In this document: positions 3,097 through 36,144 of the stretch, piece after piece | How the letters are laid out: every line of letters begins with the position of its first letter | How positions within the stretch are numbered: the stretch's first letter is position 1 | IMG/VR virus record: IMGVR_UViG_3300013128_000856 | Span: 1-36,144 of that record | Source of the DNA: a virus | Direction: 5' to 3' (one strand) | DNA length: 36,144 nt | The notes under the pieces: model-generated | What the model was told of the DNA's origin: nothing | Database searches by the model: none | The model's input: only the letters and a program-made list of their open reading frames with translations | Made by a program: the position numbers and the translations under genes

Positions 3097-4204
3097 TCAA
3101 TTTGTCCTTTATTAATTTTCCTATAGTATTCAATGAAAATAAATGCGCCCTAGTTAAACCATCTTTTTTACATGTCAATTTGTTTTTATTTTCATAAGCT
3201 TTTCTCATGGCTTGCTTTATACCCTTTTCGGATGGGCAAATCCAGTGTTCGCGCGCTGTAAATATTTCTGGAAAAGCAGCGTCTTGGCAAATACACGGTG
3301 TTTCTACTCCATAAATTAAATATCCGGTGTTATTATTTCTAACGTCAATAAAATCTTTTGGCCCTCCAAAATTAGTACATATAGGAATGTTTCCAAAAGC
3401 CATTGCTTCAAAACTTGGTATAGACCATGCCTCGCCATGAGACGGGCATATAAAACAGTCACAGTATTGATGCAAAGAATACAACTGTTCTTCTGATAAT
3501 CTTTCTGTAATAATTATATCTTGTTTGTATTCAGAAAGATCTTTATAAATTCTAAGTTTTTGTTTTTCTTGATTAGAAAATTGCTCAAATTCTTGACGAA
3601 GTTTATTTGAATCATATCCAAATTTATTGATTTTAAAAACTAATTTAGCATTATCGGTTTCGTCAAATTCAGAATGAAAAGCACGAATAATAGCCCCAAG
3701 GTTTTTTCTTTGATTCCAATCTCCAATATAATAAAACTTAAAACAATTATTTGCTTCGGGTAAATTTAAGTCAGGATATTTTTTGGTATATTTTTCTATA
3801 TCAAAACAGTGTGGTATAACAGACACATTATTAAATCCGTCTACTTTCAAAGATCTTTGCAAATCATTATTTGGAACCCAAATTTCATCGACTAGTTTTA
3901 AATATTCGCACCAAGTTAAATTTTTAATGCTACTTGATTCAGAAGCTAAAAATGCAATATTTTTTTTATATTTATTTGTTCCAATTAAATGGTGTGGCAA
4001 TACATGTTGTATACATATATCAATATTATCTGTAGATTTTTTTTCTAATTTTTCTATCTCTTTAGGAATTGAGTGGTCTTTAGTCAGCGTAACATTTCTA
4101 CAAACAATATCAATATCCGCATCTTTTATTGCTAAAATATAATTTCTAGCGGCATCTGACCATCCTCCGCTTTCTCGATAATGTCCTATATACAAAACTT
4201 TCAC
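3077..4204 (-). CDS. Glycosyltransferase, GT4 family (GT-B fold)
   Basis: A 375-residue protein. The start codon is GTG at 4204, overlapping the TGA of the upstream intein-bearing gene (GTGA), with AGGAG about nine bases upstream. MKVLYIGHYRESGGW fits an N-terminal GT-B loop. FYYIGDWNQRKNLGAIIRAF is the conserved start of the C-terminal domain, and CPSHGEAWSIPSFEAMAFGN contains the E-x7-E motif that contacts the donor sugar. All key family features are visible. The phage acceptor (DNA base, virion protein or host surface sugar) cannot be told from sequence. Confidence 0.9.
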   Translation of the reverse strand: MKVLYIGHYRESGGWSDAARNYILAIKDADIDIVCRNVTLTKDHSIPKEIEKLEKKSTDNIDICIQHVLPHHLIGTNKYKKNIAFLASESSSIKNLTWCEYLKLVDEIWVPNNDLQRSLKVDGFNNVSVIPHCFDIEKYTKKYPDLNLPEANNCFKFYYIGDWNQRKNLGAIIRAFHSEFDETDNAKLVFKINKFGYDSNKLRQEFEQFSNQEKQKLRIYKDLSEYKQDIIITERLSEEQLYSLHQYCDCFICPSHGEAWSIPSFEAMAFGNIPICTNFGGPKDFIDVRNNNTGYLIYGVETPCICQDAAFPEIFTAREHWICPSEKGIKQAMRKAYENKNKLTCKKDGLTRAHLFSLNTIGKLIKDKLNEYSNS

Positions 4205-7200
4205 TTGGTCATGCTCCTAATTCTATTTATTCTAGCTTGTTCCCACTGGTTTCTTCTATCGCATAATTGTCTCATTTGATCATACGCTACATCAAAACTA
4301 AAATCCTGTCTAAAGTTTAATCCATCAAAAACAGCAGAAGATTCATTAAAATATAAACCACCCACATTAGCAGTTGTTGATTTATACATTAGATCTCTAG
4401 CTAATCTAGATTCCATAAAGCTATTTAAACGCTCTGGTTCACACAACACATTTGTTATTAACCATTTTGCTAATTTATGAAAATCTGCATCTTTGGTGGC
4501 ATCTATTTTTGATGCAGGAGTTTTAATTCTTGGTGGAGAACCCCATGTTTGCTCGAAAGGTTTTTGGGGTAGCTCATCGAAACATCGTTCCCATTGAGAA
4601 CCGGTTTTTTCAATATTAAAATCTTGTTCGCATAGCCGCTTGGTATTTTTTGCCACCTCTAATCGTTGTTCTTTAGACAGTGTAAAAAATTGCTTGAACA
4701 TTTCGCAAGCCAAGTCGTTGTCGGGAACGGCTCTCATACAACCCGTCTCTAATTCCTTGTAAAGAGCCTTTGGTTTAATTGTATAACCACCAAGCTCTCT
4801 TACCACGCTTTCCATTGCAGAATAATCTGTGCCCATAATAGGAATGCCACATGAAGCGGCTTCTACCATGGGAATTCCAAACCCCTCGCACTGGTATACC
4901 AAACCCGCAGGAGTTAGCATCGTATGGTCCTCGTCCACAGTTACGCAATAAACGTTGTCGTTGTATTTGATTTCATTTATTGTTTTTATTTGTAAGTAGT
5001 GTTGATTGCCATGGTAAAAATTCTTTGTGTTGTGCCTGTTGGTATAAAATTCGCCATTTTTAATGTCTCCATAAATTTCAAATCTATACTGTGGCTTTCT
5101 GTTATAACCATCTGCTTCTTGTTTTTTAACAACAAGCCTAACATTAAAACTAATTCTAAGTCTTCTTAAAATTTGTTTTAGCTGATTTGCTAGAGTTTTT
5201 GATATCGTACAGAAAATAGATATAGTAGACTCTCTTCTTGTGCAAGAATGTCCATCTCCCATAAATAAACCTTGTAAACACTCTTTTTGTTTATCGGGGG
5301 GAAGGTTCATGACCCACTCTGGAAATCTTTTATTTTCAAGCTTTCCACAATGATTTTTCATATATTCAACAAATGGCTTGTTAAAAATTTCTTTATTTAG
5401 AGCTTGTCTGTCTTTATAAAAATATGTTTTAACACCACCTTCACTAAAACGAGACATAACATTTTCACATAATTCATGACATTCGTTTTCTTTTACGTGA
5501 GACGTTATTTTAATAGCTCCACAACTTGCGTTTAAATTTGCGCTACCGTCAGCAACATACAACCCAAGCCACTTGCAAAATGCATGATCGACTATTAATT
5601 GCAAATCTTTTTTATCTGATAATATATTAATTTTATTAATATCATAAATTATATCATCAATAGGATAGCTAATTATATCTCCTGACTGCAATTGATCTGC
5701 TCTATATTTACCCATTTCTGGTAAATCTTTGCCGTTTCTAAAGCTATTGCCAATCTGTTCTCTAACAGATCTTTTGTTTTGAAATTCATTCTTTGTATAG
5801 GCTGGCATTTCATGATCTTGCGTGACTCTTAATGTTTCATAATCTCCACAAATTTGCGCTTCAAGCATTTTGCTGTGTTTACTTTTTTCTAAATTTATCC
5901 AGGTATGCGTTATTTTTTTCCATCTATTTTTGTGAGTCCATGCCAAATCGCCAATTTTTACTTCAGAAATTTTACACCAAATCTCTTTATTATCTCTTTT
6001 TATTTTTATTTCTTGGTCTTTGTGCAAACAATTTGCATATTGAACGTATAAATCAAATAAATTATAAACCTGCGCTAGATCGACATTGTTTAAACCGCGT
6101 TTAACATTAGATAGTGTAGATCCCCATCTGCCAGTAAATGGAGATTGAGCTACCGGTCCTCTAAAAAATGATGGAAAAAACTTGCCAGTCTCATGACAAA
6201 TGTATGTAAATAAAACGTGAGATGACAAGTCGTTTTCTTGAAGCAGTTCTGGAATATCCCAACCAAGATCTGGATAGCTTGTATGACAATATAGATAAAA
6301 TCTTTTGTCTATGGATTGATCTAAAAATTTACGAAACGCCTCAAACAAATCCGGATACAGCTTGCGTCTTTGATTGCGCATAACTGTTCCAATAATTTTA
6401 AAATTTGGATCTATTCCGTGCGATTGTTTGTGGGCGTCTTTATCCCATATTGGCTGAAATTCTTTTGATGCGCACGGTGGAGCAGAACCACGCCACTTAA
6501 TTTTTCCGCCGGATTGTTCAGTTAAAATCTTGCCAGCCCAATTTGAATATGTAAAACAGGCATCGCATTGAGCGTAAGAAGCAATCCATTGGCGAGATTG
6601 TGGATAAGCATCTACCGTGGGCATCCATACTAAATGGTAATAGGGTCTAAATGGAGAAGTTTCTTCATGACTCATCATCCAAAAGTCTCTTATGTCGCAA
6701 TTATGCACACACCAATTGGTTACATAAGAATTATCTACATCAACCTCTAAATTGTATACTTGACCAGTGTAATTTTCTTTCCTTACTCTTTGTACGGCAG
6801 CAACCATATGACCATTAATTATATGCGTTGTTCTTGGTCTTCTAGTCGGGTTTTCGCATAGTTCAAGTTTATTGATATCAAATTTTTGAACTATCTCGTG
6901 CAATAATCTTGCAGACTCTCCATATCCTTCAACACTATAGGCTTTTGAAGATTTATTAATAGAAACAGGAATATTTAAATCTACACATATTTGTCTTACT
7001 TCATAAGCCAAATGTTGCATTTTAGATGTAAAAGAAACCGTATTTGGTCTATAACAGCCATCTGATCTAAATAATCCCCTTAGTAGCCCCTGTTTGGTGG
7101 ATATAGAACTATTAAATAGTTCCGCACAAATATGCTTATCTTCTTTTTTACCTATAAATTTTTCTAAAAATTCAGATAATAATACAGAATTACACGTTAC

Positions 7201-8154
7201 ATTAATACAGTTTTTTGCTTCAATTAAATTTAAGCTTGCAGGAATCCCAAAAATATTACAAAATAATTTAGCACAGTCTTCAGCAAAATTTATCTCATGA
7301 GCATTAAATGTTACACAAACACTTCCTTGATTTATTGATCCATCACCAATAATATAGCCTATTAGTACACCAAGTTCATAGTTCAATAAACAATTTTTAT
7401 TTATTGGATTGCAATTTGTTATTTTGGTTGGATATATTTTATCATTTTTAATAATAAAATTAGATAAATAATTAGTTATATCAATTTCTGAAGATATATT
7501 AGCACTATTGTTTTTGGGCAGAATTACTAAGTCTCCAACTTTTATATCTTTAGCCGGAATAAATTCTGGACACATTCCATCGTAAATATCTTTGTATGAT
7601 TTTTTTTGATTTGTTTGTCGTCTTTTTCTATAAGCATAAACCGGATGCTCTTCTGTTAGTTGCATATATTGAGAATCGCCACCGGCCTTTATTTTTATTA
7701 TATCTCCGACATGCTGACGACGCATAGTTTTTGTAACGGATTGATATATTCCTTTATGACTCATTACTTTTTGTCCGACTTTAATTTCTTTAATTTGCTT
7801 ATAGCCATTTTCAGTATGAATTAAAGTTTCAGGCGGAACACAAACAATATCTGGCATAAAATCAAGACAAACAGCTTCAAATGCCCATGCGCCAAATTGG
7901 TTGCTAGGATTTGAATTATATGCATCAAATTCTTCTTTACTAGTTTTTGGCTCAACCGAAGTATTTGGAGCAACCCCATAGTATTTCCACGGAGACGACA
8001 TGCCACGCGGATCGTTTTTTTCTCCATAAGATGCTAATTCTGCTATTTCATATTTGCCAGTATTATGCAAATAATTTAATACCTCTCTTGTATAAATAGC
8101 ATAACCAGTATTAAGAAAAGTTGCTTCACTACAAAATAATATTTTACGCTTCAT
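4201..8154 (-). CDS. GT4-type glycosyltransferase interrupted by two inteins
   Basis: The precursor has 1317 residues; removing two inteins (residues 105-485 and 709-1088) leaves a 556-residue glycosyltransferase. I chose ATG 8154 over a TTG 30 bases upstream because the protein then begins MKRKILFCSEATFLNTGYA, a typical GT-B N-terminus, and overlaps the SSB gene by only 11 bases. The rejoined extein reads FMPDIV-CDIRDFWMM at the first site and YVQYAN-CEGFGIPMVE at the second. The latter restores the catalytic E-x7-E motif (EGFGIPMVE). TGYA, SNWAGKIL and GTVMRNQRRKL are further family-like segments. Without splicing the second domain could not form its donor site. Substrate unknown. Confidence 0.92.
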   Translation of the reverse strand: MKRKILFCSEATFLNTGYAIYTREVLNYLHNTGKYEIAELASYGEKNDPRGMSSPWKYYGVAPNTSVEPKTSKEEFDAYNSNPSNQFGAWAFEAVCLDFMPDIVCVPPETLIHTENGYKQIKEIKVGQKVMSHKGIYQSVTKTMRRQHVGDIIKIKAGGDSQYMQLTEEHPVYAYRKRRQTNQKKSYKDIYDGMCPEFIPAKDIKVGDLVILPKNNSANISSEIDITNYLSNFIIKNDKIYPTKITNCNPINKNCLLNYELGVLIGYIIGDGSINQGSVCVTFNAHEINFAEDCAKLFCNIFGIPASLNLIEAKNCINVTCNSVLLSEFLEKFIGKKEDKHICAELFNSSISTKQGLLRGLFRSDGCYRPNTVSFTSKMQHLAYEVRQICVDLNIPVSINKSSKAYSVEGYGESARLLHEIVQKFDINKLELCENPTRRPRTTHIINGHMVAAVQRVRKENYTGQVYNLEVDVDNSYVTNWCVHNCDIRDFWMMSHEETSPFRPYYHLVWMPTVDAYPQSRQWIASYAQCDACFTYSNWAGKILTEQSGGKIKWRGSAPPCASKEFQPIWDKDAHKQSHGIDPNFKIIGTVMRNQRRKLYPDLFEAFRKFLDQSIDKRFYLYCHTSYPDLGWDIPELLQENDLSSHVLFTYICHETGKFFPSFFRGPVAQSPFTGRWGSTLSNVKRGLNNVDLAQVYNLFDLYVQYANCLHKDQEIKIKRDNKEIWCKISEVKIGDLAWTHKNRWKKITHTWINLEKSKHSKMLEAQICGDYETLRVTQDHEMPAYTKNEFQNKRSVREQIGNSFRNGKDLPEMGKYRADQLQSGDIISYPIDDIIYDINKINILSDKKDLQLIVDHAFCKWLGLYVADGSANLNASCGAIKITSHVKENECHELCENVMSRFSEGGVKTYFYKDRQALNKEIFNKPFVEYMKNHCGKLENKRFPEWVMNLPPDKQKECLQGLFMGDGHSCTRRESTISIFCTISKTLANQLKQILRRLRISFNVRLVVKKQEADGYNRKPQYRFEIYGDIKNGEFYTNRHNTKNFYHGNQHYLQIKTINEIKYNDNVYCVTVDEDHTMLTPAGLVYQCEGFGIPMVEAASCGIPIMGTDYSAMESVVRELGGYTIKPKALYKELETGCMRAVPDNDLACEMFKQFFTLSKEQRLEVAKNTKRLCEQDFNIEKTGSQWERCFDELPQKPFEQTWGSPPRIKTPASKIDATKDADFHKLAKWLITNVLCEPERLNSFMESRLARDLMYKSTTANVGGLYFNESSAVFDGLNFRQDFSFDVAYDQMRQLCDRRNQWEQARINRIRSMTK
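4891..6030 (-). mobile_element. Intein 2 with LAGLIDADG endonuclease and C-terminal Gln (380 aa)
   Basis: The element begins CLHKDQEIKI (block A), has VTQDHEMPAY as block B (T-x-x-H), and ends VYCVTVDEDHTMLTPAGLVY-Gln before Cys+1. The last residue is Gln instead of Asn, and the penultimate residue is Tyr instead of His. Both changes are known in a minority of inteins and can still allow splicing. LAGLIDADG-like motifs are CKWLGLYVADGS and LQGLFMGDG. The insertion point lies directly before the catalytic E-x7-E motif of the host glycosyltransferase. Intein 1 and intein 2 look different in sequence, so two separate invasions are more likely than duplication. Confidence 0.93.
6700..7842 (-). 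mobile_element. Intein 1 with LAGLIDADG homing endonuclease (381 aa)
   Basis: The element begins at Cys (CVPPETLIHTENGYKQI, block A), has block B as LTEEHPVYA (T-x-x-H), and ends VYNLEVDVDNSYVTNWCVHN followed by Cys (blocks F and G). Cys1, penultimate His, terminal Asn and Cys+1 are the standard residues for class 1 protein splicing. Two LAGLIDADG motifs, LGVLIGYIIGDGS and LLRGLFRSDG, about 100 residues apart indicate a probably active homing endonuclease. All residues known to be needed for splicing and cleavage are present, so I expect it to be functional. Confidence 0.95.
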
Positions 8155-8473
8155 TAATGTTTTCCGTCTGGCAACTAAAATCAAATTCGTTAATTCTAAA
8201 GATTACTCCTTCGTAACCATCTTCATCATCTTTCCATGTTTTAGCAGAACACTGGACCGCAATTTTAGATCCAGGTTCAGCAAATTTAGCAATAGTTTCT
8301 GCACCAGTATGATACGCCTCGAATGGTAAATATGTAACTACTTTTACCTTTTCGCCACTTTTTGCCTTTCTGTGCGAAATAACTTCAAGCTCAAATTGAA
8401 TATAGCTAATGCCATCCGCCTTGTCTAGAGAGGGTTTTTCCGTAAAAAACCCAATAAAATTACAACTATTCAT
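8144..8473 (-). CDS. ssb: Single-stranded DNA-binding protein (OB fold)
   Basis: A 109-residue protein. MNSCNFIGFFTEKPSLD is the typical first strand of bacterial/phage SSB (N-x-x-x-x-G-x-x-x-x-x-P). It is followed by ISYIQFELEV, VVTYLPFEAYHTGAETIAKF and GSKIAVQCSAKTWKD, the order seen in the SSB OB fold. The flexible acidic tail of cellular SSB is reduced to a short Glu/Asn-containing end. It protects single-stranded DNA during replication. The start ATG shares one base with the stop of the polymerase C-terminal gene (TAATG), so the two are probably made together. Confidence 0.85.
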   Translation of the reverse strand: MNSCNFIGFFTEKPSLDKADGISYIQFELEVISHRKAKSGEKVKVVTYLPFEAYHTGAETIAKFAEPGSKIAVQCSAKTWKDDEDGYEGVIFRINEFDFSCQTENINEA

Positions 8474-10050
8474 TATATCTCGTAAACCTTTTCAACAATT
8501 AGGCCGGGCTTATCTTTATTAACAAGCCCACAAATTAACAAATTATTTCCTTCGTACAAACAATATTCATACTGTTTCCGTGTCATTGGAAAAACTACAA
8601 CATTATCTAATACACAGCTTTCGTCTTCAATTGTCAAAAAACTCATTAATTCGCCCTTACTTTTTCCATTTTTTACTTTGCACGTAGTCATTTTTTTGAT
8701 TGTTGCTGCTACACACAAAAACTTTCCGGTTTTGCCATTGGAAATTTCTTTGCATGTTGTGTTAGCGGAAGACGTATCTGACGACTCGATACTGGAAATA
8801 GAAATTGGGCATCCGAATAGCTTTTTCTCTTGTGCAACAATCCAGGCCGGAGTATCTTCTAGTGAATATGGTGGCTCTTTAAGAAAGCTAATTTCGTTGT
8901 TTATAGCTTGCATTCTTTCAGTTTTAGATGTTCCCCCTCCCATCTTTTTGGTTGGGGCTAGATCTTGTAAGCACGACTCTAAATTACTCCACTGTTTGAC
9001 TGGATACTGATCTTTAATCCATTTTAATTCAGCGTCTGTAAGACTAGAAAATATTTTATATTCGTATATAGCGCGATTTCTTGTTAATCCATTGTTATTA
9101 AAACAAAAAAATCCAGCATAACACAAGGCTTTAAATGCCGTGGCATTTATTTGTGTAGAAACGTATATCAAAATATCCATCCAAGAATATTGAGACAGGG
9201 GCTTTTTATCGCCATTTTTATCTTTAACATCTAGGTTATTTAGCAATTCAAATAGTTTATCGCCAGTGACTCCGGTTAAAGACTTAATACTTTTGATGCC
9301 AAACAGAATTTTTCTATCACCAATCTGTTTAAAATCTAAAGAAAAAAAAGACAGTTTTGGCGTAACAAATTCTATATCAAACAACTTTGCTTCGCTTACA
9401 AGTTCGGACACTTCTTCGTGCGGGTCTTGTTTTTCTTGCGCATATGTTAGGTAAGATACAAAGAACTTGGTGGTAAAATAAGCTTTGTAATATGCGCTTT
9501 GATACGCATTGATTGCATAAGACACCGCATGACTTGCGTTAAAAAGATATCTTGCGCTTTTTTTAATCCAGCTAAAAATCTCAATAGCAATATCATCAGG
9601 AACTATTCCGACTTTTTTACAACCGTCTATGAATTTTACTTCCACTTTATTCATAAGGTCGGCTTTTTTCTTACCAATAGCTTTTCGCAGATCATCAGCT
9701 TCTTCTAGAGTAAAACCGGCAAGTTTTTGGGCGATACGCATAACTTGTTCTTGGTATACAATAACGCCTTGAGTTACATCTAAAAACTCTTTTAATGAAT
9801 TGTGAATATAATTAACGTCTTCAATTTTATGTTTTCTGTCAATATAATGCTGGGTCATAGATTTGCCATCTGTAATAGCCATCAAGCATCCTGGACGCAG
9901 CAAACTAATTAAAGCAGATAATTCTTGTATATTGTTTGGTTTTAACTTCTTTGACCAATTACGCCCGAGATTGCTTTCCAATTGGAATATACCCTTAGTT
10001 TTTCCTTCGGCAAAAAGCGCCCAAACTTTTGAGTCATTATAATTATTCAT
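8473..10050 (-). CDS. dnaE: DNA polymerase III alpha, C-terminal fragment gene
   Basis: A 525-residue protein carrying the second half of a bacterial C-family polymerase. It begins just before the conserved GIFQLES segment (about residues 20-26) and continues with LRPGC, TQGVIVYQEQVMRIAQKLAG, EADDLRKAIGKK and FNASHAVSYAINAYQSAYYK, all typical fingers motifs of DnaE. The last about 90 residues resemble the OB domain (KFLCVAATIKK to VEKVYEI). The active-site Asp residues lie on the other gene at 12073-13575, so the two products must associate to form a polymerase. It overlaps the upstream unknown gene by 8 bases and couples to SSB downstream. Confidence 0.92.
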   Translation of the reverse strand: MNNYNDSKVWALFAEGKTKGIFQLESNLGRNWSKKLKPNNIQELSALISLLRPGCLMAITDGKSMTQHYIDRKHKIEDVNYIHNSLKEFLDVTQGVIVYQEQVMRIAQKLAGFTLEEADDLRKAIGKKKADLMNKVEVKFIDGCKKVGIVPDDIAIEIFSWIKKSARYLFNASHAVSYAINAYQSAYYKAYFTTKFFVSYLTYAQEKQDPHEEVSELVSEAKLFDIEFVTPKLSFFSLDFKQIGDRKILFGIKSIKSLTGVTGDKLFELLNNLDVKDKNGDKKPLSQYSWMDILIYVSTQINATAFKALCYAGFFCFNNNGLTRNRAIYEYKIFSSLTDAELKWIKDQYPVKQWSNLESCLQDLAPTKKMGGGTSKTERMQAINNEISFLKEPPYSLEDTPAWIVAQEKKLFGCPISISSIESSDTSSANTTCKEISNGKTGKFLCVAATIKKMTTCKVKNGKSKGELMSFLTIEDESCVLDNVVVFPMTRKQYEYCLYEGNNLLICGLVNKDKPGLIVEKVYEI

Positions 10051-10651
10051 TTATTTTAAATTCCGAATTTAAATCAAAATTATTTGGTTTATATTTGGGG
10101 GGATTTTTTAAATCATAAGGATCTACAAAATTTAAATTATGCCATCTGCAAAAATTATTTGGATAAACACAAAAATTACCATTATTTAGTTGTATAAAAT
10201 GAAAACATTTGCTGTCAGCATCTGAGGCATAACCAAGCGGCAAGCAGTTTAAATCTGAGTAGTAATCATCTATTGTGAATAAGTATTTACCTCGCATCCA
10301 CTCTTTTTTATTTCTGCTAGTTACATCTACAGTATAATTTTGTAAATATGAAAAACACGTTACGGCAATATCGTTAGATTGACAATCCCACCATTGTAAA
10401 TTAGATAATCTTTCTTGTTCTGTTTCGCCAAGCTGTTCGTAATGCTCTTTCCACACAAAAGCAGAAATTGGTAAACCCCAAAATACGGCTCCATTTTGTA
10501 GTTGGCAATGAAATAATAAAGGTTTATTTATAATGCTTTTAACGCCAAAAATATAACATTCTGTTAGATCATTATTGTTGTTGTCGTTAAATAAATATTT
10601 ATTTTTTATAAAACCAAATTGGTACGGTATATTTGCATTTAACTGTGTCAT
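10043..10651 (-). CDS. Unknown protein between exonuclease and split polymerase
   Basis: A 202-residue protein starting at ATG 10651. I recognise no family. It is rich in aromatic residues and Asn, with Trp/Tyr-containing strands such as VFWGLPISAFVW, LQWWDCQSNDIAVTCFSYL and WMRGKYLFTIDDYYSD, and has no predicted membrane segment. It lies inside the replication block, 8 bases overlapping the polymerase C-terminal gene and 7 bases after the exonuclease, so a role with the polymerase is possible, but this rests on position only. Confidence 0.7.
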   Translation of the reverse strand: MTQLNANIPYQFGFIKNKYLFNDNNNNDLTECYIFGVKSIINKPLLFHCQLQNGAVFWGLPISAFVWKEHYEQLGETEQERLSNLQWWDCQSNDIAVTCFSYLQNYTVDVTSRNKKEWMRGKYLFTIDDYYSDLNCLPLGYASDADSKCFHFIQLNNGNFCVYPNNFCRWHNLNFVDPYDLKNPPKYKPNNFDLNSEFKINE

Positions 10652-10658
10652 AATTTTC

Positions 10659-11339
10659 TTATTTTATGTATAATTCACCATTAGTAAAAGCCCCGTCTAT
10701 ATGCAAATTTTTGGCAACTGATCTATGTGTTTTTAAGAATTTCAAAAAAATATTTGCTGTGTCTTTAACGTCTTGCAATGCGTCGTGAGCGTTGTCTTTT
10801 GATAAACCCATTCGTTCACGCATCGCATCCATACTTCTTGATTTTATATTATGATCATTTTCTGTCCACATAAATACATTATCCAACATATCTATTTTGT
10901 AGATTTGATGAAATAGTTTTTGTCGATTTGATTTTTCATCAAATGGCCCAAATTGTTTGCACATTCTGTTTACAATAATAAGATCATAGTTGATAATATT
11001 ATAACCAACTGGAACCGGAGCAAAAAACGATGTGTTATTGTAATTATATTGCTGCACAAACGATACAAACTTAGACCATACAGATTTTAGTTCTGGAGCC
11101 TTGTCTATTTGTTCGCGTGTTTTTCCGGTTATTTTTAATGCGCCTTCTTCTATTGGTCCAAGGCCCATTGCTATAGCTTTTTTGTCATCAACAACAGCCC
11201 GTATTTCACTATTGAAAACGCCCTTTGGAGTAAGTCTACGACCATCAATGGCAATAGCCGCCAATTGGGTTGGTTGACAGGTATAGGGATCTCGGCCCGA
11301 GGTTTCATAATCGAAGCAAATGAAGTCTAAATTTGACAT
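10659..11339 (-). CDS. DnaQ-like 3'-5' exonuclease (DEDDh)
   Basis: A 226-residue protein. The DEDDh residues are visible: Asp10 and Glu12 in FDYETSG, Asp119 in GYNIINYDLI, and His185/Asp190 in NAHDALQDV. This family removes mispaired 3' ends and serves as the proofreading subunit beside Pol III alpha, which has no exonuclease domain of its own here. The gene lies between the two polymerase fragment genes, so all three products are probably made from the same message. Length fits the catalytic domain of cellular epsilon with little of the C-terminal alpha-binding tail. Confidence 0.9.
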   Translation of the reverse strand: MSNLDFICFDYETSGRDPYTCQPTQLAAIAIDGRRLTPKGVFNSEIRAVVDDKKAIAMGLGPIEEGALKITGKTREQIDKAPELKSVWSKFVSFVQQYNYNNTSFFAPVPVGYNIINYDLIIVNRMCKQFGPFDEKSNRQKLFHQIYKIDMLDNVFMWTENDHNIKSRSMDAMRERMGLSKDNAHDALQDVKDTANIFLKFLKTHRSVAKNLHIDGAFTNGELYIK

Positions 11340-11354
11340 TAAATTTCCCTTAAA

Positions 11355-12026
11355 TTATTTGTTATATTCCGCTACCATTTTACAATTTTCAATAAAATCT
11401 TGTTGGTTTAAATCCCATTTCATATGATTTACTTTTTTATCTAGCCACTGTATGTTTCCTGGAATGTAGCCTTTGGCGCTATCTATTCTATCCAAAGAAG
11501 CATTAGCGAATTTTCTATTTTTATTTGTTGTTGCGAAATATATTGGCTTTCCTGTTAATGCACATTTTTTACCCTGTTTCACATACAGATTCCATGCGTA
11601 TTCGATGGTTATTGTAAATTCTAAACCTCTCGTTTTAGCTCCGTTTTCAATGGTCCAAAAATAACATTTTTTAATATCTTCATATCCTTTATAGTTTGGA
11701 TGATTTTTTCCCCTTTTTCTAGATGTACAACCACAGCTTTTAGTATTGCCGGTTACTAAAGCGCAAGATTTAAGATAAACAAGTTTTCCACAAGAGCAAA
11801 CGCATTCAAACACGGTATGGGAATCTTTTTTTCCATATTTTTTAATTACTGTTAAATCTCCAAATTTTTTTCCTATATATCTATCTTCAATTTTTTTTCT
11901 AATTCCATATATTTTCATTAAGCCGCTTATCCAACTTTCTGAACAACCATATTCTTTAGCTATAGCTCTTTGTGTTTTTTGTTCTACATAAACTAAATTT
12001 TTTAATTCTTCTTTTGTGATTATCAT
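11355..12026 (-). CDS. HNH homing endonuclease, free-standing, in split dnaE
   Basis: A 223-residue protein. I start it at ATG 12026 because AAAGGAG lies seven bases upstream; an upstream in-frame start would leave a poor N-terminus. Residues near the start (AIAKEYGCSESWISGLMK) look like a helix-turn-helix. A Cys cluster (FECVCSCGKLVYL and SCGC) resembles the Zn module common in phage HNH enzymes. The C-terminal part has CALTGKPI, LDRIDSAKGYIPGNIQWL and VNHMK, matching the HNH nuclease core. It sits directly behind the stop of the polymerase N-terminal gene, as expected for a homing endonuclease that has broken its target gene. Confidence 0.88.
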   Translation of the reverse strand: MIITKEELKNLVYVEQKTQRAIAKEYGCSESWISGLMKIYGIRKKIEDRYIGKKFGDLTVIKKYGKKDSHTVFECVCSCGKLVYLKSCALVTGNTKSCGCTSRKRGKNHPNYKGYEDIKKCYFWTIENGAKTRGLEFTITIEYAWNLYVKQGKKCALTGKPIYFATTNKNRKFANASLDRIDSAKGYIPGNIQWLDKKVNHMKWDLNQQDFIENCKMVAEYNK

Positions 12027-12072
12027 ATAAGTCTCCTTTGGTGAATTTAGACATATATTAATACACAATTCC

Positions 12073-13575
12073 TTATATTTCCTTTATATACATTAATTTA
12101 TCCAAAAGTGACAGTCCTAACAAATCGATCTTTGTCAAGCCAACTGATTCCAAATCTTCCATTTCAAATCCACAGATTTTTTCTTCGCCTTCTCGTTGAT
12201 GTACCATTGGGCATACATCAATTAATTTACGGCCAGACACAACAATGCCAGCGGCATGTTTGCCCTGCGTTTTAAATGTGCCCTCGATAGCTATAGCATG
12301 TTCAAAATGTTCGGCATAATCACCTTCTAATTCCCCAAGGTTGTTTATAAAACAAAAATCTTTGAGATCATTCGCGTTGTTGATAAGCGCCCATTTAATA
12401 ATTGACCGATCCTCTTCATCCATTTCTTCTAGTTGATCTGATATTTTTGCTTCGTCTGGAATGTATTTAGTAATTTCATTCACTTCTGTAAACGAACAAG
12501 CTTCCTTGGTTCTAAAAACTTCTTTGATTGCACTTCTACCCTGCAATCTTCCAAACGTAACTATTTGACCAACATAGCTGTTTCCATATTTGTTTTTGAT
12601 ATAACTAATAATTTGATCTCTTTTTAAAGCAGGAATATCAATATCAATATCCGGTAAAGATATATGATCCTTAGAATTGCGTCCAGCATTATAAAATCTT
12701 TCAAAAATTAAATCATATTCAATCGGGTCTACTTTGGTTATACCAAGCAAATAGGACACAAGACAACCGGCTGCACTTCCTCTGCCCGGCCCGGTCATCC
12801 ATCCTTTGTTTTGGGCAAATTTAATAATATCCTGAACTATCAAAAAATAACCAAACAAATTTGCATCTTTAATAACCGCAAATTCTTTAAAAAATCTATC
12901 TAAATATTCTTGTTTTGTATTGAGGTTTTTGGTTTTAGCAGCAAGTAGTTTTTCCCACCCGGTTCTGCAAAGAATTTTTAGATATTCTTCTTCTGTTTCT
13001 TTGTTTGGCGTTTGAAAAGCTGGAAGCGCTGGAGGGTGTAATATATTAATATCTTCAACAGAATCGTATATATTTACAAGATTCACGCCCGACGCTTTGA
13101 GATGTTTACCGTCATATTGATCTAAAATACTTTTGTCTATAGAAGATAGAGTTTTTTTAAGTTTAGAGCAAACAAGAATTTGGTGCAATATGCGATCAGA
13201 TGTATGTGGATAGTATGATTCTGTGTCTAATTCTAATGGTCTGCGCAATAAATTGTTGGACAATAGCAACTCTTGCAATATGTTTTGATCAACGTTGCCG
13301 TCTTTATCTATGGAGGAAACGATATGCACAAGATCTTTCCATCCCGCATTGTTTTTAGCAAACAGCCTGCATTCATCTAGTGTGCAGCCAACAATAGGTT
13401 TGACTCCAGCACTCTTGGCACATTTATAAAAGTCAACCGCTCCAGACAAAGATTTATAATCCGCAATGCCACAGGCCGGTAGATTATTTTGAACGCAATA
13501 GTCAATTAAATCTTTTGGCTTAGAAAAGCCCAGGCCCAAACTGTAATGAGTATAATTAGCTAACGGAAATTGCAT
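12073..13575 (-). CDS. dnaE: DNA polymerase III alpha, N-terminal fragment gene
   Basis: A 500-residue protein carrying the first half of a bacterial C-family polymerase. The PHP-like region occupies about residues 1-200 (THYSLGLGFSKPKDLIDYC, AGVKPIVGC), but the N-terminal His-x-His metal site is not kept. The palm motifs are intact: GPGRGSAAG (262-270), PDIDID (308-313) with the two catalytic Asp, and KIDLLGL (482-488) with the third Asp. The reading frame stops at residue 500, only about 12 residues after that motif, where an intact DnaE would continue to the GxFQLES segment now in the gene at 8473-10050. Its ATG shares one base with the stop of the gene upstream. Confidence 0.93.
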   Translation of the reverse strand: MQFPLANYTHYSLGLGFSKPKDLIDYCVQNNLPACGIADYKSLSGAVDFYKCAKSAGVKPIVGCTLDECRLFAKNNAGWKDLVHIVSSIDKDGNVDQNILQELLLSNNLLRRPLELDTESYYPHTSDRILHQILVCSKLKKTLSSIDKSILDQYDGKHLKASGVNLVNIYDSVEDINILHPPALPAFQTPNKETEEEYLKILCRTGWEKLLAAKTKNLNTKQEYLDRFFKEFAVIKDANLFGYFLIVQDIIKFAQNKGWMTGPGRGSAAGCLVSYLLGITKVDPIEYDLIFERFYNAGRNSKDHISLPDIDIDIPALKRDQIISYIKNKYGNSYVGQIVTFGRLQGRSAIKEVFRTKEACSFTEVNEITKYIPDEAKISDQLEEMDEEDRSIIKWALINNANDLKDFCFINNLGELEGDYAEHFEHAIAIEGTFKTQGKHAAGIVVSGRKLIDVCPMVHQREGEEKICGFEMEDLESVGLTKIDLLGLSLLDKLMYIKEI

Positions 13576-32073: not shown

Positions 32074-32144
32074 AACGAGCAAATGGAATCGAACCATTGT
32101 TTTGTTGCTGGCAGCCACACGTAATACCATTATACCATACTCGC
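32074..32144 (-). tRNA. tRNA-Gly (anticodon GCC)
   Basis: The minus strand folds into a 71-nt cloverleaf: acceptor stem GCGAGTA with TGCTCGT (7 pairs including one U-G and a G-U at position 1-72), D arm with GGTA, anticodon loop CTGCCAG giving GCC (32110-32112), T arm AATGG-TTCGATT-CCATT. The anticodon stem has one G-A mismatch. No CCA is encoded and the discriminator base is U. The arms are all visible, so the call is firm for a tRNA; charging identity rests on the GCC anticodon. Confidence 0.85.
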
Positions 32145-32157
32145 ACCAACATGTCAA
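32129..32157 (-). promoter_or_regulatory. Consensus sigma70 promoter overlapping tRNA-Gly
   Basis: On the minus strand TTGACA (32152-32157) is followed by 17 bases and TATAAT (32129-32134), preceded by TGG (extended -10). This is a perfect consensus. The -10 box lies in the D-arm of the tRNA and the start point would fall around tRNA position 22-23, so a transcript from it would lack the tRNA 5' part. It would instead express the membrane protein and glycosyltransferase downstream. Confidence 0.6.
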
Positions 32158-32521: not shown

Positions 32522-32713
32522 TTAAAACGCTTGTTGAACATCGCTGGGTTGTGCTGCTTGACGAATAATTTCTATTCCGTCTTTAAGATACTCTGTTAAC
32601 CTGTTAATTTCACCGTCAATCCTGGTTTTTTGCTCATTTAACCCAGCAATTTCTCTCTGAACATTCATTAGGTGAGCTTCGGCTAATTGTGATAGGTTTA
32701 ATTTCTTTTCCAT
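32522..32713 (-). CDS. Small coiled-coil protein
   Basis: A 63-residue protein with AGGAGAAAGTT before its ATG. The sequence MEKKLNLSQLAEAHLMNVQR and GEINRLTEYLKDGIEIIRQA has a heptad-like pattern of Leu/Ile, so a coiled coil is likely. No family recognised. It is the first gene downstream of the proposed structured RNA. Confidence 0.65.
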   Translation of the reverse strand: MEKKLNLSQLAEAHLMNVQREIAGLNEQKTRIDGEINRLTEYLKDGIEIIRQAAQPSDVQQAF

Positions 32714-32739: not shown

Positions 32740-33125
32740 GACATAAGTGTACACCGCAGGTATATGTGGGTCATGTACACGTTGAACCACACGATTGGGT
32801 AATGCATTAGATTCAGGATCTCTAGTCGATCACAAACAAATTTTTCGATTTCTCGAATGTACATGACCCTCCAAGTTGCTCCTCAGCATTGCCTGGAATT
32901 TGTGTTTGCGTCGATAGATTAAGCCGGGTTTGCGAAACCATGTGGGTCTTGGGATATATTCCCTTTTGCGCGGTTTGGCTACCACGCTGGCAAATCCTTA
33001 GTGAAGTTACTCCACTTCTCGTCAAAGTTTTATTCGCACACTGGTGAAAGGTGAAAACCTGACCGAAATGTTTTCGTTGTACACAAATGGACATAACGGC
33101 CCGAAACCCTTAATTTGGCTATAGA
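32740..33125 (-). ncRNA. Candidate large structured RNA, unnamed
   Basis: No convincing gene is present. On the minus strand many helices form: GGGTCATGTACA with TGTACATGACCC (12 pairs; 32858-32869 with 32768-32779), directly flanked by hairpin UUCGA-GAAA-UCGAA (32844-32857) and by a hairpin closed by UCCAGG/CUUGGA with inner UGCU/AGCA (32870-32897). Others are GCGUGGU/ACCGCGC (32968-32987), GGGA/UCCC (32951-32963), GAAGU/ACUUC (33003-33018), and long-range AUUAAG-GGUUU (33104-33114) with AAACC-CGG-CUUAAU (32918-32931) and GUGUACA/UGUACAC (33078-33084 with 32747-32753). Two helices use G-U pairs only on the minus strand, which sets the strand. Ends are approximate. Confidence 0.6.
32768..32869. 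repeat. Inverted repeat with 12-bp arms
   Basis: Plus-strand GGGTCATGTACA at 32768-32779 and its exact complement TGTACATGACCC at 32858-32869, separated by 78 bases. It forms a main helix of the candidate RNA. Confidence 0.9.
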
Positions 33126-33153: not shown

Positions 33154-33217
33154 ATGCGGAAATGGGAGTCGAACCCATATTGTCAAAGACCGTGTTATCC
33201 GTTTACACAATACCGCA
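33154..33217 (-). pseudogene. Degenerate tRNA-Gln (anticodon region UUG) lacking part of anticodon arm
   Basis: The minus strand shows tRNA parts: acceptor TGCGGTA/TTCCGCA (6 of 7 pairs), a D arm GTGT-AAACGGATA-ACAC with the conserved GG, and T arm ATGGG-TTCGACT-CCCAT. Between D and T arms only 13 bases remain (GGTCTTTGACAAT), about 9 fewer than needed. GGTCTTTGAC matches the 5' part of a tRNA-Gln anticodon arm (CUUUGAC, anticodon UUG), so its 3' stem and part of the variable region are missing. It is directly upstream of the candidate RNA. Confidence 0.7.
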
Positions 33218-33231
33218 AAATGATAGGCCCA

Positions 33232-33762
33232 CTATTTATACACTTTTCTTGGGTTTCTTATCTTAATTTCATCTAATTCCGAAGCAGAAACAACAAAATT
33301 TTCGGGAAGTTTAGGCCCGTATTGTTTTCTTTGCTTAATTTTATTAAATTTTTCTCTAGTTATTTTACCTATTAGTTCTACTTCTAGTGTAATTGGGTCC
33401 ACCCTCATAAGCACATAAACGCTAGGATGCTTTTTATTGAACTCCTGAACCTTGATTTTTAACTCTGGCTCTCCGGCCCCAAAATAGGTCACGGTTTTAA
33501 TTTCAACTCCTTTGAAGTCATACCCCTTGTCTCGCACGGAATAAATATTCTCGTCGATTGGAAGCCCTTTAACGGTGGCCCAGGCCATCTCTCCTAGAAC
33601 ACCTATTAGATGCGGGGCATATTCATTAGGAATGCCGAATTCGTTTTTCTTTTCTGGGAAATAAATGGATCGATTTCTAAAAGAAATATTTTTTGCTTCA
33701 TGACGCGCGATTGCTGTTTCAACGGCTTTTTCTAATTGTTTTGAATTAAACTTGATTTTCAT
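33232..33762 (-). CDS. PD-(D/E)XK-like protein
   Basis: A 176-residue protein starting at ATG 33762, overlapping the deaminase stop by 17 bases. GVLGEMAWATVKGLP begins with a helix containing Glu, then GYDFKGVEIKTVTYFG gives a possible D...E-x-K active site, and SVYVLMRVDP and VELIGKITREKF are the later strands. This is the layout of small restriction-like nucleases often seen in phages. No target is known. Its stop is followed by 14 bases and then the decayed tRNA. Confidence 0.65.
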   Translation of the reverse strand: MKIKFNSKQLEKAVETAIARHEAKNISFRNRSIYFPEKKNEFGIPNEYAPHLIGVLGEMAWATVKGLPIDENIYSVRDKGYDFKGVEIKTVTYFGAGEPELKIKVQEFNKKHPSVYVLMRVDPITLEVELIGKITREKFNKIKQRKQYGPKLPENFVVSASELDEIKIRNPRKVYK

Positions 33763-34730: not shown

Positions 34731-36144
34731 TTATTGTATTCCGGTAATTTTATCCCCGGCTGGACTTGTTGTTAATGTTTTTGTAACATGAGTTGTTGTT
34801 CCATCGGTGCGCTTAATTGTTAAAGTTGTTCCAGATATATTATTTTCAAGATTAGCCAGTATCAAAGTAGTTAATGAGTGTTCTGGAGCAACTGTTTCAA
34901 CGTTAGATACATTCCGTATCAGAACCCCATCGGCAATTTCATTGACCGCATCGGTTGCCAATGCTGAAGCTGTCAGTGTGTTTGATCGCATCTCAGCTAC
35001 GCTCGCATTTCCAAATGCCCACAATACGATTTTATCTGGACCTCCGTCTTGAGGGTTCACATTCCACGCTCGATCAACTGTCAAAGTTACCGACGAACCA
35101 CCCGCACTGACAGCATTTGTCACAATTCGAGCTTGACCTACTCGCAACTCGCTAGCATCATCGTTGTAAATTGAAACGGTAGCACCAACCAGTGCTGCTG
35201 GCGTAGTTAGTTTCGTCGCTGAATAAGTAACTGTCGTGGCAGTTGAAGAGTTGACTGGTCCATGATCTAAAACTAACTCTGTTTGTAACAAATCAATTTG
35301 AGTAACCAAAGTGACCGTATCGACCTGCCCTACCCCGCCTGCGGGAGTGACATCGAGCGTTCGTCCTGCGGTGGTGGGCTTGAGCCAGTTGCCCTTGTCA
35401 TCGAGTGCCGATGCAGCAATTGATGCTTGGGTAATCGTATTAGCGGCCATTGCACCTACGCTTGCGTCTATGCGACCTGACACGAGTGCCGATGGCAGAC
35501 GGTTTAGCACTGGCGTAAAGTCCACGTTTATAGCCGCGAACTGTGCGTCTAGGTTTGCACTCGCTAGACCCACTGCCGCTCTCAGCGTCGATTCCGTCAG
35601 CACCGCAGTGCCAACCGTGTTATCGACTGCCACGCCGACTGCGACTTGATTGGCAGACGGTACAGCAAGAGTGCCGGTTAGCGTAGCAGGATTGCCGTAG
35701 GTGGTTCCACTTCGCACGTTGCCAACTGCCGGAACGCCAAGAATTTGATCTGCGGAGAATCTCTGGTTTGCCGATCCGGTTGGCGAACCCGGTGTAGCGT
35801 GTGTCGTTGTGCCAGTGCCAGAAACGACACGAAGGAATGTTGTGCGGATAGCAACACGCCCAGCAGTTGAGTCCGTGATACTGCCGATATGAAACACGCC
35901 ATTGGCCGAAGAATTTCCAGTATGATCGATTCCCCACGATGCTGTGCCGTTCGCTTTGACTTCTCCGCTGGAAATTACGTTGCCGGACGCGCCGTTGTGT
36001 TGTATGCCTGCCGCAAGGGAACCACCACCACCTTGGATTGTAGTTGCCGTCGCGGTAATCGTGCCGGATGCGCCGTCGTGACGCAATCCATGCGCGCTAG
36101 TACCACCGCCGCCTTGGATTGTTGTCGCTGTTGCGGTGATTGTG
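34731..36144 (-). CDS. Tail-fibre-like protein, C-terminal part (5' end beyond window)
   Basis: An open frame enters from the right edge and ends at TAA 34731; 471 codons are visible, with no N-terminus. It is Thr/Ala/Gly/Ser-rich. Near the right edge is a 27-residue repeat (TITATATTIQGGGG ... HDGASG). Later segments are NRLPSALVSGRIDASVGAMA, ASALDDKGNWLKPTTAGRTL and, at the end, TLTIKRTDGTTTHVTKTLTT, which resemble repeats and C-terminal modules of phage tail fibres and neck/baseplate proteins. GC content is far higher than in the rest of the window, at least up to about 35100, which suggests recent acquisition. Assignment is by composition and repeats. Confidence 0.75.
   Translation of the reverse strand, partial: TITATATTIQGGGGTSAHGLRHDGASGTITATATTIQGGGGSLAAGIQHNGASGNVISSGEVKANGTASWGIDHTGNSSANGVFHIGSITDSTAGRVAIRTTFLRVVSGTGTTTHATPGSPTGSANQRFSADQILGVPAVGNVRSGTTYGNPATLTGTLAVPSANQVAVGVAVDNTVGTAVLTESTLRAAVGLASANLDAQFAAINVDFTPVLNRLPSALVSGRIDASVGAMAANTITQASIAASALDDKGNWLKPTTAGRTLDVTPAGGVGQVDTVTLVTQIDLLQTELVLDHGPVNSSTATTVTYSATKLTTPAALVGATVSIYNDDASELRVGQARIVTNAVSAGGSSVTLTVDRAWNVNPQDGGPDKIVLWAFGNASVAEMRSNTLTASALATDAVNEIADGVLIRNVSNVETVAPEHSLTTLILANLENNISGTTLTIKRTDGTTTHVTKTLTTSPAGDKITGIQ
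35960..36144 (-). repeat. 81-bp tandem repeats in the tail-fibre-like gene
   Basis: CCTTGGATTG occurs at 36031-36040 and again (CCTTGGATT) at 36112-36120, 81 bases apart, within longer matching blocks such as GTGCCGGATGCGCCGTCGTG and its diverged copy TTGCCGGACGCGCCGTTGTG. At protein level the unit is about 27 residues. More copies probably continue beyond the right edge. Confidence 0.8.

Follow-up and report, generated by a model that had tools for sequence, protein, structure and literature searches.

GOLLD and ROOL are RNAs of phages and prophages that lie near transfer RNA (tRNA) genes and form protein-free cages (PMC12286853). The stretch analysed here comprises positions 1 to 36,144 (36,144 nucleotides (nt), hereafter the window) of IMG/VR record IMGVR_UViG_3300013128_000856, a fragment of the genome of an uncultivated tailed phage. 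At 32750..33120 on its minus strand it almost certainly encodes a conserved structured RNA, whose extent, with approximate ends, is conserved in homologues and is defined by an alignment (A3) together with the core of a covariance model (R1). As with GOLLD and ROOL, the RNA is phage-borne and found beside tRNAs, namely a tRNA remnant and a tRNA-Gly gene in the window, a tRNA-Thr in L048 (labels of this form denote individual sequences, either family members or relatives) and the tRNAs that accompany a second RNA, referred to as clade 2. An earlier, sequence-only reading had suggested that this region (32740-33125, ~380 nt) may belong to GOLLD or ROOL or to an undescribed class. The first part of this suggestion did not stand, as neither the RNA region nor its homologues matched any of the Rfam models, including GOLLD, ROOL, OLE and transfer-messenger RNA (tmRNA), and a scan of the region against Rfam, even at E≤10, returned nothing notable besides the tRNA. 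An undescribed class is the better reading. No description of the RNA was found in the open-access literature, and it is apparently a previously undescribed family of uncultivated phages.

Searches of the region with blastn against isolate phages and plasmids gave short chance matches only. Relatives were reached via neighbouring genes, using a deoxycytidine monophosphate (dCMP) deaminase and a glycosyltransferase profile. Between the deaminase gene and a gene of 63 amino acids (aa), most relatives hold only a small open reading frame (ORF), and six hold short, ordered matches to the RNA at precisely this position. Further members were added by motif scans. The family comprises 18 IMG/VR contigs besides the window: 3300017788_000048, 3300006875_002433, 3300006810_008231, 3300007960_003809, 3300009703_001293, 3300020410_000482, 3300020470_001055, 3300020461_000391, 3300021964_006579, 3300028829_001468, 3300046532_002455, 3300031627_000048, 3300009481_003953, 3300030106_007252, 3300020477_000939, 3300020442_000899, 3300031519_004863 and 3300019776_000305. 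The first of these comes from practically the same virus as the window and provides no independent evidence, because its RNA is identical; nearly all differences between the two contigs lie in the last ~1.1 kb (35000-36144), within a repetitive gene at the window end. The RNA is present once per genome and patchily among relatives. In nearly all members it lies directly upstream of the 63-aa gene on the same strand, and L105 has a different gene downstream. Queries with the homologues found no match among isolate phages, a gene of 130 aa with group-wide conservation had none in 50,697 phage records, and no close isolate was found. When ~85,000 species genomes of bacteria and archaea were scanned for a motif, 30 matches emerged, about the chance expectation, none of them with helix A (described below) nearby and none above a chance-level model score. 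Pattern matches in L141, L142, L145 and L179 were rejected as false.

The core of the RNA (32861..33005, minus strand, as are all elements described below) scores 98.3 bits with R1, a covariance model of 144 positions built from 14 sequences. The model also finds L105 (81.4 bits, E 2.6e-18) and L178 (103.8 bits, E 1.9e-25), neither of which was used in building it. In the original alignment, two-sided changes are observed at 13 of the 18 pairs and 97.1% of cells are paired, against 29-54% in slid controls. The 19-member model-fitted alignment, which is more biased towards the model than the original one, gives two-sided changes at 14 of the 18 pairs and pairing in 97.9% of cells, compared with 26-59% in the slid controls, and none of 500 shuffles reached as high a pairing. 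Helix A (32968..32987), with a conserved loop UAGCCAAA, shows two-sided changes in four of its five pairs and is 100% paired. Helix B (32927..32939) carries a conserved 7-nt loop, YUCRCAR, and changes on both sides at all four pairs. Helix C (32871..32896) consists of an outer and an inner stem with a GNGG-type loop, is 100% paired and shows two-sided changes at six of nine pairs. Helices A and C correspond to GCGUGGU/ACCGCGC and UCCAGG/CUUGGA, whose G-U pairs had been taken earlier as a sign of a minus-strand RNA, and both are among the strongest covarying helices. Across the core, G-U cells are far more numerous than unpaired cells, which places the RNA on the minus strand. These sequence changes indicate that strong purifying selection maintains the core pairs in members that have diverged.

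Two long-range helices form a pseudoknot in the second half of the RNA. Helix D, the perfect 12-pair stem already noticed in the window, joins 32858..32869 (5' strand) to 32768..32779 (3' strand) and is conserved and covarying in homologues, reading GGGUCAU/AUGACCC in most members, GGGUGAA/UUCACCC in L073 and L144, GGGUCAA/UUGACCC in L134 and GAGUCAU/AUGACUC in L105; in three of eight pairs, both bases are exchanged. In helix E, the linker between helices B and C (32903..32918) pairs with the stretch between the two D strands (32821..32838); since this pairing crosses D, the two helices are pseudoknotted. The E strands of the same member average -13.8 kcal/mol versus -7.3 kcal/mol for strands combined between members, and the own partner is the best in 10 of 14 rows. 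In most members, the 5' strand of helix D is followed by a GNRA-capped hairpin of changing sequence, the counterpart of the GAAA-capped hairpin (UUCGA-GAAA-UCGAA) that had been described beside the 12-pair stem.

The remaining elements lie around and between these helices. The RNA begins with a hairpin (AGCC...GGCC) with a conserved A-rich GGG loop (33098..33120, alignment A3), followed by a conserved block AGGUUUUCACCU that forms a small hairpin (33049..33060) and by hairpin HH (AGUGGAG-UAA-CUUCACU, 33000..33016), which is supported by per-member folds and varies freely in sequence among homologues. Hairpin HL (GGGA-AUAUA-UCCC, 32951..32963) is variable and missing from some members. Near the 3' end lies a conserved block, ACCUGCGG (32754..32761, alignment A3), which reads ACCYGUG in most members. 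All helices of the sequence-only reading are present in the window sequence. Its long-range pairing of the ends (32742-32756 with 33075-33089) did not hold up: it is an 80% match seen in the window only, with no matching end pairing in homologues. The region is richer in GC than its surroundings, as had been remarked (0.44 versus 0.37 in both 1-kb flanks). Folding energy fails to single it out. The z-score is -3.1 for the minus strand and -0.7 for the plus strand, 200-nt windows of the RNA region rank only ~8th of 360 across the window, coding stretches of the window have similar z-scores, and for several homologues, shuffled versions fold just as well. The case therefore rests on covariation and not on energy.

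The RNA is probably a stand-alone, trans-acting, pseudoknotted and non-coding molecule of ~370-400 nt, since in most members a TATAAT box of its own precedes helix A by ~145-170 nt, frequently with a fair -35 box, and L090 has in addition a terminator as well as a promoter dedicated to the following gene. In L090, the RNA is preceded by the first promoter and followed by a terminator-like hairpin that has a T-tract and then by the second promoter. In most members, a sigma-70-like promoter of its own would transcribe the RNA, which would act as a folded product and not as the leader of a messenger RNA. The window has no recognisable TATAAT box upstream of the RNA, so the RNA may be read there from further upstream; it would then be trimmed near the tRNA-like element, a step that is a guess. 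This element (33154..33217, minus strand, 32.1 bits with the Rfam tRNA model) lies ~30 nt upstream of the RNA and was rightly called a remnant, its anticodon arm being ~10 nt short. By analogy with GOLLD and ROOL, the likeliest role, put forward tentatively, is that of a structural scaffold which would be produced in the course of infection and might act with or without a protein. Several observations weigh against the overall reading of a stand-alone structured RNA. A terminator hairpin is clear in L090 only, and in most members the RNA ends at most ~60 nt from the next start codon, where a leader role is possible. The permutation p-values of helices D and E (5e-5 each) are uncorrected for shared ancestry. 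Between the conserved 5' loop and the strand that precedes helix B, the pairing is conserved and has no covariation support (p 0.31).

A neighbouring gene is linked to the RNA. Gene g176 (33232..33762, minus strand) lies upstream of it in the window, adjacent and on the same strand, and was found in 15 of the 15 members with enough upstream sequence versus none of 44 RNA-less relatives. Its product is probably a PD-(D/E)XK nuclease, as suggested by a motif (G..GE...RD.G.DF.G.E.K) that is invariant in 13 homologues and by a structure model (predicted local distance difference test score, 73) whose matches include many viral proteins; two of these carry the annotation restriction endonuclease, one at E 4.8e-7. 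Against the PDB the model gave no significant match, those to HincII and PvuII included. The gene is a candidate partner of the RNA, or else the gene responsible for moving a cassette that holds both. That the RNA works with the g176 protein, as a ribonucleoprotein or by restraining the nuclease, seems rather unlikely: the linkage is also compatible with a cassette moving as one unit, no g176 was found with clade-2 RNAs, and the viral scans for g176 relied on a single sequence. Moreover, in L048 an intact tRNA-Thr, which lies behind g176 at the same place as the remnant in the window, and further ORFs separate the gene from the RNA. There is a similarly small chance that the RNA and the g176 protein make up a single nuclease system carried by the phage, with the RNA guiding, activating or restraining the nuclease; the target could be, for instance, DNA of the host or of a competing phage. 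With the conserved pseudoknot next to it, the nuclease-like gene offers a first handle on function.

The position of the RNA relative to the 63-aa gene (32522..32713, minus strand, directly downstream), often within ~60 nt of its start, would fit a cis-acting 5' leader, riboswitch-like or attenuator, that regulates this gene and those after it. Such a role is nonetheless unlikely. The terminator and second promoter of L090 stand between the RNA and the gene, a perfect 12/12 promoter follows the RNA in L140, and promoters both precede and follow the clade-2 RNA in L183. In addition, the 63-aa gene is conserved in RNA-less relatives, which are the majority, and L105 carries another gene at this place.

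Less probable still is a functionless passenger or the decayed remnant of a mobile element, such as an intron or a nuclease-driven homing cassette. The patchy occurrence of the RNA and the adjoining nuclease-like gene and tRNA remnant are compatible with such an origin, but pairs kept by strong purifying selection in divergent members, a single copy per genome and the lack of a match to group I or group II introns of Rfam make it very unlikely. Finally, a protein-coding gene or a chance structure is refuted: an ORF of 90 aa is open in the window and another one has 76 aa, but there are stops in all three frames in 14 of the 14 members compared, the overlapping ORFs have no Pfam match above the cut-off and are not open in homologues, and the pairs covary. 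The sequence-only reading was right to see no good gene in this stretch, and the minus-strand structured RNA that it predicted is supported: of the outcomes that it had named as refuting, neither a lack of covariation in homologues nor strong similarity of the translated frames to known proteins was observed.

Model R1 also gave weak matches (E 1e-4 and 3e-4 per genome, with 50 genomes searched) in two relatives without the main form of the RNA. These matches fall within the clade-2 RNA, which is ~300 nt long and occurs at six places in five genomes (L182:614-912(-), L183:603-912(-), L198:442-744(-), L199:355-667, L200:306-620 and L201:260-559), one 167-kb contig carrying it twice. At four of the six places it is directly preceded by tRNA genes. 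Its structure shows two-sided changes at 21 of 34 pairs and is 94% paired, against 35-42% in slid controls, and no Rfam match was found for it. Hairpin C and the long-range stem that follows are common to the clade-2 RNA and the main family, and the R1 match is limited to hairpin C. The two are likely to share a common, distant origin. Together, the main RNA and the tRNA-adjacent clade-2 RNA suggest a repeated occurrence of large structured RNAs in this group of uncultivated phages.

Most genes of the window are on the minus strand. They encode, among others, a split DNA polymerase III alpha subunit, a class II-like ribonucleotide reductase, glycosyltransferases and a sigma-region-4 protein. 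The polymerase (8473-13575, minus strand) is divided into two ORFs, a PHP/NTPase part and a finger part, between which lie an RNase T-like exonuclease and a 237-aa ORF that appears HNH-like by eye and has no Pfam match. A glycosyltransferase gene of 1327 codons (4201-8184, minus strand) apparently contains two intein-like insertions with Hint, intein-splicing and LAGLIDADG domains. The tRNA-Gly gene (32074-32144) is overlapped by a 12/12 sigma-70 promoter-like site (32129-32157, minus strand), which may be due to chance because its TATAAT falls in the D arm of the tRNA.

Type III toxin-antitoxin RNAs (ToxI-like) are pseudoknotted RNAs that adjoin a nuclease-like gene. The RNA described here is devoid of tandem repeats, the protein gene comes first and the nuclease is of another fold type, so that the likeness is a resemblance only. 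Ideas that the region might hold RNase P, tmRNA or a group I intron were rejected, because Rfam gave no match and the strings that had prompted them are not conserved. Permuted tmRNA, described for marine phages (PMC9004378), is likewise a structured RNA gene within the same phage group: such genes (RF04321) lie in the relatives L111 (2423-2616), L123 (2299-2550) and L125 (2544-2740), with tags ending in ALAA or AMAA. ARAGORN and Rfam both detect these three but find no tmRNA in the window. Permuted tmRNA is, however, a separate gene located elsewhere, and the RNA does not match the tmRNA profile. ROOL, too, is large and pseudoknotted, comes from phages and prophages and is often found near tRNAs, but the RNA described here measures ~370-400 nt versus 659 nt for the ROOL structure solved (PMC12286853), has no Rfam match and is linked to a nuclease-like gene. 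GOLLD, known from aquatic metagenomes, is also a phage RNA found beside tRNAs; the RNA reported here is about half its size or less and does not match its profile. Because its setting and style are those of GOLLD and ROOL, yet no Rfam model matches, the RNA is a new class of a known kind rather than a member of either family. It thus adds a covariation-supported class to the few large structured phage RNAs, of which the ornate GOLLD and ROOL are the nearest known kind, and as a smaller molecule it makes the role of these ornate RNAs testable.
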